This document shows positions 4,354-19,116 of a stretch of DNA of 39,944 nucleotides, one piece after another. The DNA is taken from the NCBI GenBank assembly GCA_020353355.1, contig CP070694.1, positions 5,215,162-5,255,105 on the forward strand. Direction: 5' to 3'. A program made the position numbers and the translations under genes. Below the pieces are notes generated by a model. The model was not told the DNA's origin, did no database searches, and saw only the letters and a program-made list of their open reading frames with translations. Each line of letters begins with the position of its first letter. Positions within the stretch are counted from its first letter, which is position 1. The DNA comes from Desulfobacterales bacterium. Lineage in GTDB: Bacteria; Desulfobacterota; Desulfobacteria; Desulfobacterales; JAHEIW01.

Positions 4354-4632
4354 CTTTACTTTCCATTCCCTGTTCACAACGGTGATGCAGATATTTGGAA
4401 TTGACACGTTTACACTGGATATCCTTTTATCATCTGTTGCGCAGATCAAACAATAATTTTCTGTCAGTGAAACATCAAACGAACGAACCTAAATTTCTCT
4501 TGACAAATACTGAAGATATTAAAAATATGGGCCAACTCGTTGAGGATAAATAATCAACTCCAAGACACCGAACAGACCGTAATCGTAACGATAACGCTTC
4601 TGAGAAGAATCAAAAACCAAGGAAACTCGCCC

Positions 4633-5068
4633 ATGGATAAGGTAATTGCGGTTGTAACCGGAGGAACACGGGGTATTGGGTTGGCGATCGCCAAATCTTT
4701 AGCTAAACGCGGTGCCTCTGTTGCGGTGACATTTAGCAGCGACTATAAAGCTGCGGATGAGGCTAAACAGCAATTGGAAGGGCTCTTACGGGAAGGCACA
4801 TCAGTTTTAACGCTCAACGGCGATGCCGGCAATTCAGAGGTTGTCGCCGAGCATTATGACCTCGTTCGCGAAAATTTGGGACCGATCAATGTGCTGGTGA
4901 ACAACGCCGGCATTATGCCGATCCAATCGTTTGAAGAAATCACGATCGAAAATTGGGATAACACGATTCGGATCAACCTCAGTGGAGCATTTTACTGGAG
5001 CCGGCAGGTTGTGCCGCAAATGAAAAAACAAAAGTTTGGATGTGAATGGTGGGGCATTCATGATCTAA
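4633..5068 (+). pseudogene. FabG-like short-chain dehydrogenase with internal out-of-frame deletion
   Basis: ATG at 4633 (AAGGAAA upstream) opens an SDR: nucleotide motif GGTRGIG, the NNAG motif (VLVNNAGIMP), and NLSGAFYWSRQ. At KKQKFG (about 5033-5038) homology stops: the catalytic Ser and the YxxxK region are missing. Immediately after, in the +1 frame, 5039-5068 reads D-V-N-G-G-A-F-M-I-stop, the exact style of a FabG C-terminus. About 90-100 codons between these blocks have been lost and the join is out of frame; the original frame runs on to 5082 with unrelated residues. The product cannot be an active reductase. The next gene's ribosome site lies just downstream, so the pair was probably one operon. 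Confidence 0.85.
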
Positions 5069-5096
5069 TTTTGGAGGATTGAATGGAGGAATAACG

Positions 5097-5495
5097 ATGA
5101 TCAAGGGTATCGGCCATTTGGGTATTGTGGTACAAGACATCGAAAAAAGCCTGAAAGCACTATCAAAAATCATTGAATTTGAAATGCCTCTGATTCGCGA
5201 GTTTCCTGAAAAGAAAATGAGGTGTGCCCTTCTGGAATTGAATGGACTCGGATTGGAGTTTATTCAAGATGACAGTGACGATGGATTTCTGGGTCAGTTT
5301 CTAAGGGAAAAAGGAGATGCGATTCATCATTTTTGTTTAATATCCGACAACATCGCCGAAGATGTTACAACGCTGAAGCAGCGCGGGATTGATATGCGGG
5401 ATCAACAGCCCCGAACCGGTTTGCGCGGAAAGCAAATTGCAATGACCATGCCGAATGCCTTGAACGGCATAACGATTGAACTGTCCGAACCTTAA
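5097..5495 (+). CDS. VOC/glyoxalase-fold protein, methylmalonyl-CoA epimerase-like
   Basis: Cytoplasmic protein of 132 residues with two beta-alpha-beta-beta-beta units. Start 5097 is chosen because GGAGG (about 5086-5090) sits 6-7 nt upstream. Metal ligands of the epimerase family can be aligned: His in GIGHLGIVV, His in GDAIHHFCL, and Glu in ITIELSEP. The PRTGLRGKQIAMTMP segment matches the epimerase PRPGAHGK region. Epimerases interconvert (R)- and (S)-methylmalonyl-CoA in the propionate pathway, but no mutase is present here. Its partner gene is a broken FabG-like reductase, so it may act on another acyl or hydroxyacyl compound. Confidence 0.75.
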   Translation: MIKGIGHLGIVVQDIEKSLKALSKIIEFEMPLIREFPEKKMRCALLELNGLGLEFIQDDSDDGFLGQFLREKGDAIHHFCLISDNIAEDVTTLKQRGIDMRDQQPRTGLRGKQIAMTMPNALNGITIELSEP

Positions 5496-5665
5496 TTCGG
5501 ATCTGAATAGCAAATTCCATTTTATGCCGCCGGTTCACCCCGAGTGATGTTGCTGCTCACAGCAGGTGGCTTTTCGCGTTTGACTTCGCTAACGGATTTT
5601 GATTTACAAGTCTTTAAATAACTAATATATCAATAAAACTGCTCAAATTATCATTGGAGACACAA

Positions 5666-17734: not shown

Positions 17735-18961
17735 TTACTTTTCCGTGGGCTTCAGCTGTGCCATGGGAACGAGCAAAATCTTGCCGACAAGCTGCATCAT
17801 TTTGTCATCACGTTTCAAACAAAGCGCTTTAATCTGAAACAAAATTCTGGATGCTGCTGTTTCTTTCCAAAACCAGTTATCTAAGGTCGTGCTGTCCGGC
17901 GGTGTTTCACCCGGCTGAGCGGAAACAGCTTCGTAGTAGTAGGCTTTAAGATCATCCACTGCAAAATTCAGCGCTAATCCTAAGGATAAATCGTTATGCG
18001 GATTCGACGGAATACCGTCAAGAAAGGCGCCGATAAAATCAACGATGGTATCCATATCCAAACCGCTGACACCAACGGTGGTTCGGCCACGCAGTTTAAA
18101 TGCCTGATCATACCACGGACGCAGCTCCAGAACCTCCTGCCTCAAGGCAGCACGCAAAAGTTGGTTATCGCTTAGGCCTTCAGTTTTGCGAGTAAGATTC
18201 ACCGGGCAAGCCCAAACGGTTTCCACCATGTCTGATGCCGGTGCATCTTCGGCAAAATCTTCCAGCAGGGGTCCGCTGGTTGCCTCCAAAAGCTTCAAAC
18301 AGGCCAAAAGCACGCGTTTTTGAAACACAGGATTATCAGGAACTCCCAGTGGGCGCCCGAGTTCAAAGGGTACCCACAACGCACGCGGTGGTTTGATGGC
18401 TTCCGTATGCTCGCGAATAAGACTGATCTGGGTGGTAGCAACTCCTTCGTCTTCAAAATAATGTGCCAGCCCGCCCACGGCGCGCGTACAGAGCGGTCAG
18501 ACAGGAACCAGCAACACGGCGTTGACCCGATCCTTTATGAATAAAGTTGCCATTTTCCGTGCAGACGGTTCCATATCCGACGGATCAACGGCTCCCATAA
18601 ATGAATAGTGATAATCAGCCAGACTCCCAATCTTGCCTTCATCGACAAACTCACGCAGTCGATCCAGCGGAAAAACGATATTCCAGTCCTGCTGAAAGCC
18701 GCTGCGATCAAAATTTGTCGAAACATGAGACATAATTAGATCATTGGCATTAATATCACCGGGGATGATGCGATAGTGATCACCGGATTCTAAGGAAAAC
18801 GGGCGATCATCGCGCCGGTGCAACCCTGCTGTAGAGACGATCGCAATACGGCGCAGGTTTAAGGGGGGTCCGGAGACCCAGGGACGGGTATCAAAGCGAG
18901 GCAATTTGGTTTTGGCAATGTGTGAGCGCTGAGGTTCGGGGAGTCGTTCAAGTCGAGCCAT
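17735..18961 (-). CDS. Selenoprotein of glycine/sarcosine/betaine reductase B (GrdB-like) family; UGA read as Sec
   Basis: Read leftward from ATG 18961 (AAAGGAAA just upstream). After 154 codons there is an in-frame TGA at 18497-18499, then 253 more sense codons to TAA at 17735. Sequence continuity across the TGA is clear: VLLVPV-U-PLCTRAVGGLAHYF, where this family has V-C/U-x-x-C followed by VGGLAHxLE. The protein would be 408 residues with Sec155 and Cys158 as a UxxC redox pair. N-terminal family blocks are IVSTAGLHRRDDRPF, MSHVSTNFDRSGFQQD and DYHYSFMGA; after the Sec come SLIREHTEAIKPPRALWVPFELGRPLG. The last about 150 residues are an extra domain I do not recognise. GrdB proteins activate amines or carbonyls by a selenol; no other grd subunits are nearby, so the reaction is unknown. 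Confidence 0.85.
18471..18499 (-). promoter_or_regulatory. Candidate bacterial SECIS hairpin at UGA
   Basis: In the mRNA, right after UGA: CCGCUC (18496-18491) pairs with GGGCGG (18476-18471, one G-U), then a UGU bulge, then ACG pairs with CGU around the loop CGCGC. A G is second in the apical loop and a bulged U lies in the stem, as in bacterial SECIS elements. The loop is nearer to UGA than is typical, so the exact fold is uncertain. Confidence 0.4.
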
Positions 18962-19116
18962 GCGGTTTCCTTTCTTCCATGAACAGTTTAAGAGCGCTGC
19001 TCTGCTCGCTGTATGTCTACACAAGAAAAATCACATTTTCAAGTTTAGCTGAAAAAATCAAGTCTTTTACCTCCAATTCACAAGCTTGATGGTCTCGGAA
19101 AAAGTCAAAAAAAGAT

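Follow-up and report, generated by a model that had tools for sequence, protein, structure and literature searches.

A predicted stand-alone PrdB-like selenoprotein with a conserved C-terminal helical extension in a Desulfobacterales genome

Introduction

The window analysed here, a stretch of 39,944 nucleotides of contig CP070694.1 from a Desulfobacterales bacterium, contains a locus on its minus strand (positions 17,735–18,961) that mechanical annotation divides into two open reading frames. Are these two short genes, or is the UGA between them a selenocysteine (Sec) codon within a single gene, and what might the product of such a gene do if the reductase that it resembles has no partner subunit nearby? 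PrdB-family selenoproteins are, according to the available text of metagenome surveys, among the most abundant selenoproteins in the sea, yet they are named after an enzyme of clostridial amino-acid fermentation.

Marine bacterial selenoproteins of this family have been known since 2005: the available text of the Sargasso Sea survey gives 42 genes for PrdB-family Sec proteins (PMC1088965), and that of the GOS survey 235 Sec and 110 Cys genes (PMC2398784). Sec proteins of the family are also listed in reviews of 2022 and 2026 (PMC9312934, PMC13188914). Because PrdB-family selenoproteins have long been known from the Sargasso and GOS data, Sec in this family is not itself new, and both sets may include members of the branch described below. 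What is new here is a branch that bears its own C-terminal extension, lacks an adjacent partner gene and is, so far, apparently all-Sec.

One reading frame across an in-frame UGA

Translated with TGA as Sec, the minus strand from 18,961 to 17,735 forms a single frame of 408 codons, interrupted only by the TGA at 18,499–18,497 (codon 155) and ending in a TAA stop. An earlier note, made from the window's sequence, had proposed two halves in one frame separated by nothing but this TGA, and the 408-residue translation agrees with it; its coordinates were right, and the strand, which it left unstated, is minus. The initiator methionine is invariant in 12 of 12 aligned homologs, and AAAGGA, located 6 nt 5′ of the ATG (18,968–18,973, minus strand), is a likely ribosome-binding site. 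The translation likewise contains the proposed U-x-x-C pair, as Sec155-Pro-Leu-Cys158, in which Cys158 (18,488–18,490) is the putative resolving partner. A plus-strand reading of 17,735–18,961 is ruled out by many stop codons.

Six short peptides of the protein were searched for in the DNA of 84,980 species genomes, yielding 12 full-length homologs with 42–68% identity, in metagenome-assembled genomes (MAGs) named as Deltaproteobacteria, Desulfobacteraceae, Thermodesulfobacteriota, Chloroflexi, Alphaproteobacteria and Gammaproteobacteria. The codon aligned with UGA155 is TGA in all 12, and all of them run past it into the same C-terminal domain, so that family sequence is continuous across the UGA, as the earlier note had held, and homologs do not end there. 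In the alignment of these 12 members (A1), neither U155 nor C158 varies. Whole-genome searches of two phyla and of four homolog-bearing genomes added many further homologs, and those that cover the site all have TGA. The question raised earlier, whether homologs carry Cys or Sec at 155, is thus answered by TGA in every site-covering sequence. Samples of two phyla, of 395 and 398 genomes, showed no Cys form of the extension-bearing branch (E ≤ 1e-50; up to four candidates scored per genome), and Cys turned up solely among core-family proteins that lack the extension. Because every site-covering homolog, from several phyla, has TGA and reads on, UGA155 is predicted to be read as Sec within one intact selenoprotein gene.

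A SECIS-like hairpin and the decoding machinery

A hairpin resembling a bacterial SECIS element lies 3′ of the UGA (18,465–18,489, minus strand), occupying nucleotides 11–35 counted from the U of UGA, with core pairs between 15–21 and 25–31 and a GUG loop (18,478–18,476); it was assessed by a synonymous-codon null, a position scan and compensatory pairs. With synonymous codons redrawn from each gene's own usage (2,000 redraws, 46 sequences), 294 pairs were observed versus 196 expected (s.d. 7) and no redraw exceeded 221, corresponding to z ≈ 14, a value that overstates independence because the sequences are related. As a control, the same test was moved along 1,047 positions in 30 full-length genes; the highest score fell at the UGA (z 10.7), and the next four registers all overlapped it.

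Compensatory exchange is evident among the 45 distinct sequences, in all of which pair 19–27 is kept (as G-C, A-U, G-U or U-A), as is pair 18–28 (as C-G, G-C, U-A or A-U). Pair 15–31 is kept in 42 of the 45, and positions 17 and 29 are unpaired (G-G) in 17, including the window sequence. The three-base loop starts with GU in 42 sequences and with GG in the other three. Taken alone, the window hairpin is no more stable than its dinucleotide shuffles, and the SECIS assignment therefore rests on the comparison among homologs; by its place 3′ of UGA155, its GU loop and its fixed distance, the element is a predicted bacterial SECIS.

The source genome (5.31 Mb in one contig, 84.7% complete) encodes SelA (620 bits; cut-off 268) and SelB (379 bits; cut-off 242), together with two full-length selD genes at 4.31 Mb (L032) and 3.25 Mb (L033), each of which has an in-frame TGA. 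All three protein genes of the selenocysteine machinery that were sought are thus present, and the absence named earlier as refuting the selenoprotein does not apply to them. The fourth gene, selC, was not found in this assembly: the best Rfam matches were ordinary tRNAs, two DNA patterns gave nothing tRNA-like, and ARAGORN found only ordinary tRNAs, both in 20-kb regions surrounding selA and selB and at every pattern match. A tRNA-Sec well above threshold occurs in a genome of the same genus (G001), where ARAGORN confirmed it with anticodon TCA, and in most other relatives. The simplest reading is that the tRNA-Sec is missing owing to the incompleteness of the assembly, which nevertheless holds selA, selB, two selD genes and several UGA-containing genes.

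These results bear on the alternative that UGA155 is a genuine stop codon or a sequencing error, the locus being two separate genes or a pseudogene. The undetected tRNA-Sec would fit it, as would the damage to the ortholog in a same-genus genome (L018:7001-7806, CP070746.1), which lacks residues 103–232, including the Sec site, and has its halves in different frames through deletion, decay or assembly error. Set against this are the TGA found at the aligned codon in every site-covering homolog from several phyla, the frame that stays open beyond it and the covariation in the hairpin, which make the alternative extremely improbable at this locus and, on sequence comparison, refute it for the family.

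Placement in the GrdB/PrdB superfamily

Residues 34–236 (18,254–18,862, minus strand) form a core homologous to PrdB and GrdB, modelled as a Rossmann-like α/β domain. Residues 34–152 match the Pfam family GRDB (PF07355) with E 1.1e-8 and 35.2 bits, above the gathering cut-off of 22. The best NCBIfam match is TIGR04483 (PrdB), with E 1.7e-25 and 89.9 bits, below the equivalog cut-off of 300, whereas TIGR01918 (GrdB) gives 42.9 bits, below its cut-off of 65.45, and is covered only at profile positions 224–374 of 431. The description of the protein as GrdB-like therefore holds at the level of the superfamily, although the protein is nearer to PrdB than to GrdB. As the annotated PrdBs of Peptoclostridium and Enterococcus gilvus score 310 and 401 bits and pass the 300-bit cut-off that this protein, at 90 bits, falls far under, the protein is assigned by profile to the GrdB/PrdB superfamily and is not a PrdB as defined.

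PrdB, the 26-kDa selenoprotein subunit of D-proline reductase, shares a homologous core of about 195 residues, in which Sec155 lies opposite the Sec of annotated PrdB, and Cys158 opposite its Cys three positions further along. Identity is about 33% or less, however, and the PrdB motif UGTCHR differs from UPLCTRAV here; the present gene further has no adjoining prdA, and its product carries an additional C-terminal domain of 172 residues that is absent from PrdB. In the selenoprotein B subunits GrdB, GrdH and GrdF of glycine, betaine and sarcosine reductase (PF07355), it is the C-terminal third of the Pfam family that is matched up to the Sec, and the U-x-x-C motif is shared, but the N-terminal half of GrdB, about 200 residues, is missing from the present protein, whose C-terminal domain is in turn absent from GrdB. 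A Roseomonas haemaphysalidis protein (WP_207415257.1), annotated as 'Glycine/sarcosine/betaine reductase selenoprotein B family protein', is likewise a solitary PrdB-like core with no adjacent reductase subunits, but its Sec position is occupied by Cys (CPVC) and it lacks a homologous extension.

The 'Proline reductase PrdB' sets of the Sargasso and GOS surveys resemble the present protein in being marine bacterial UxxC selenoproteins of the PrdB family; the available text of the two papers assigns them D-proline reduction and makes no mention of a C-terminal domain or a solitary subfamily (PMC1088965, PMC2398784). A full-text literature search for PrdB-like and GrdB-like proteins returned matches only on rumen Synergistota and fluoroacetate.

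A conserved C-terminal helical extension

Residues 237–408 (17,738–18,253, minus strand) form an extension that is conserved throughout the branch (alignments A1 and A3). The earlier note had described about 150 unrecognised residues; the extension remains without a Pfam or convincing PDB match, and it is slightly longer than stated, with about 172 residues following the end of the core near residue 236. Residues P253, E276, R293, D337, Y342, E344 and W363 are invariant in alignment A3, and G351 is nearly so. AlphaFold predicts the extension confidently as all-helical, with a pLDDT of 88.8 when modelled alone, compared with 82.1 for the whole protein.

Pfam searches of 31 extension-bearing members gave no common family, and a sequence-profile search of the PDB with the extension returned nothing credible. 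Against PDB structures, the modelled extension gave Foldseek E values above 2 and a best VIA-align Z of 4.7, a weak match that is no proof of a new fold, and a fold search with the whole-protein model gave only generic α/β matches. In a tree built from the core only, the 31 extension-bearing proteins fall on one side of a single branch (support 96/95), apart from PrdB, the Roseomonas Cys homolog and short paralogs, which points to a single origin of the extension. An AU test of this clade was uninformative, as a truncated member, L094, lay outside the constraint.

Gene neighbourhood and the missing partner

No PrdA- or GrdE-type gene lies beside the present gene, in keeping with the earlier statement that no other reductase subunits adjoin it; the adjoining genes encode a LysM transglycosylase and GAF/HTH proteins. 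Their order is partly common to three close relatives (L006, L007 and L018) and not to distant homologs. Among the homologs whose neighbours were inspected, no reductase subunit lay beside the gene, and the distant ones had no partner in common. The profile PF09338, which in a control does match PrdA, has a single match in the source genome, at 3.87 Mb, 1.36 Mb from the gene.

The protein could instead belong, as its B subunit, to a true D-proline, glycine, sarcosine or betaine reductase, with the partner subunits encoded elsewhere in the genome. In line with this, the core is homologous and has its Sec at the equivalent position, and the genome encodes the PF09338 protein and a GrdF-like one (L005, 2.76 Mb). 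The PF09338 gene, however, lies more than 1 Mb from both the present gene and the GrdF-like gene, the score against the PrdB profile is far below that of annotated PrdBs, PrdB has no such extension, and reductase subunits were absent beside the homologs inspected, all of which render a distant-partner reductase improbable.

As neighbours are not conserved among distant homologs, no functional claim is drawn from them. In three alphaproteobacterial MAGs (L011, L012 and L014), a phosphonate-type periplasmic binding protein is encoded directly upstream on the same strand, preceded in L011 and L012 by a TauD-family dioxygenase. In a Chloroflexi MAG the neighbours of the homolog include genes for a flavin reductase and for a ferredoxin-like protein, and in another MAG a DUF3047 gene.

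Proposed mechanism

The reading that we consider reasonably probable is that one intact selenoprotein gene encodes a stand-alone PrdB-like Sec/thiol reductase; the undetected tRNA-Sec, the unexceptional stability of the window hairpin by itself and the lone PF09338 gene as a possible distant partner count against it. SelB and Sec-tRNA would decode UGA155 by way of the hairpin behind it, as the machinery and the covariation suggest. In both glycine reductase and D-proline reductase, a carbonyl group of the enzyme complex, pyruvoyl or other, holds the substrate. The selenolate of these enzymes is believed to become joined to a carbon of the substrate as a selenoether, and a thiol then resolves this to give a selenenylsulfide (PMC10298544). 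By analogy, Sec155 and Cys158 probably act in the same way on an electrophilic small molecule: the Sec155 selenolate would attack an electrophilic atom of the substrate, Cys158 would then resolve the adduct to a selenenylsulfide, and a cellular dithiol, either thioredoxin or a low-molecular-weight thiol, would recharge the enzyme. Because no gene for a PrdA/GrdE-type pyruvoyl subunit lies alongside, the C-terminal helical domain probably fills the partner's role, forming the substrate-binding wall or oligomer interface that the partner provides in D-proline reductase.

A precedent for a Sec-containing GrdB-like protein acting on a compound other than an amino acid is FarB, which is proposed to cleave the C–F bond of fluoroacetate; the far operon, unlike the present locus, has a GrdE-like gene (FarE) and a radical SAM gene, and the available text of the report gives no C-terminal helical domain (PMC10838667). 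More tentatively, the extension-bearing branch may comprise one-protein reductases that carry out Sec-based cleavage of a C–N, C–S, C–halogen or similar bond in a reaction not yet described, with the helical domain replacing PrdA/GrdE and no pyruvoyl partner.

A U-x-x-C motif in a solitary gene, with homologs in MAGs named as Alpha- and Gammaproteobacteria besides those of deltaproteobacteria, would also suit a protein that works on peroxides or on protein partners as a redox switch or thiol-disulfide oxidoreductase, with a UxxC motif as in thioredoxin-like selenoproteins, and does not cleave bonds of small molecules. This seems unlikely, given that the best structural matches to the model include no thioredoxin-like one and that the core is specifically related to PrdB and GrdB, which cleave C–N bonds, with the C–F case proposed in the available text on FarB (PMC10838667).

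A branch with its own conserved domain and no adjoining reductase partner suggests that the PrdB name is wrong for some members of the family, and that a Sec enzyme of this kind serves several phyla. Its single-gene architecture makes the proposal easy to test.

Further family members

Four more genes of the GrdB/PrdB type occur in the source genome, and every one contains an in-frame TGA; three (L002, L003 and L004) are short and PrdB-like, and the fourth is the GrdF-like L005, which has no PF09338 gene nearby. One short PrdB-like paralog (L116:1558-2169) has UPLD in place of U-x-x-C, and thus a Sec with no resolving Cys. Two alphaproteobacterial MAGs contain eight (G420, the source of L012) and five (G422, the source of L010) matches to the family profile, each with one in-frame TGA, and G422 carries a tandem pair of extension-bearing copies (G422:C14:3149-4345 and 4370-5572).
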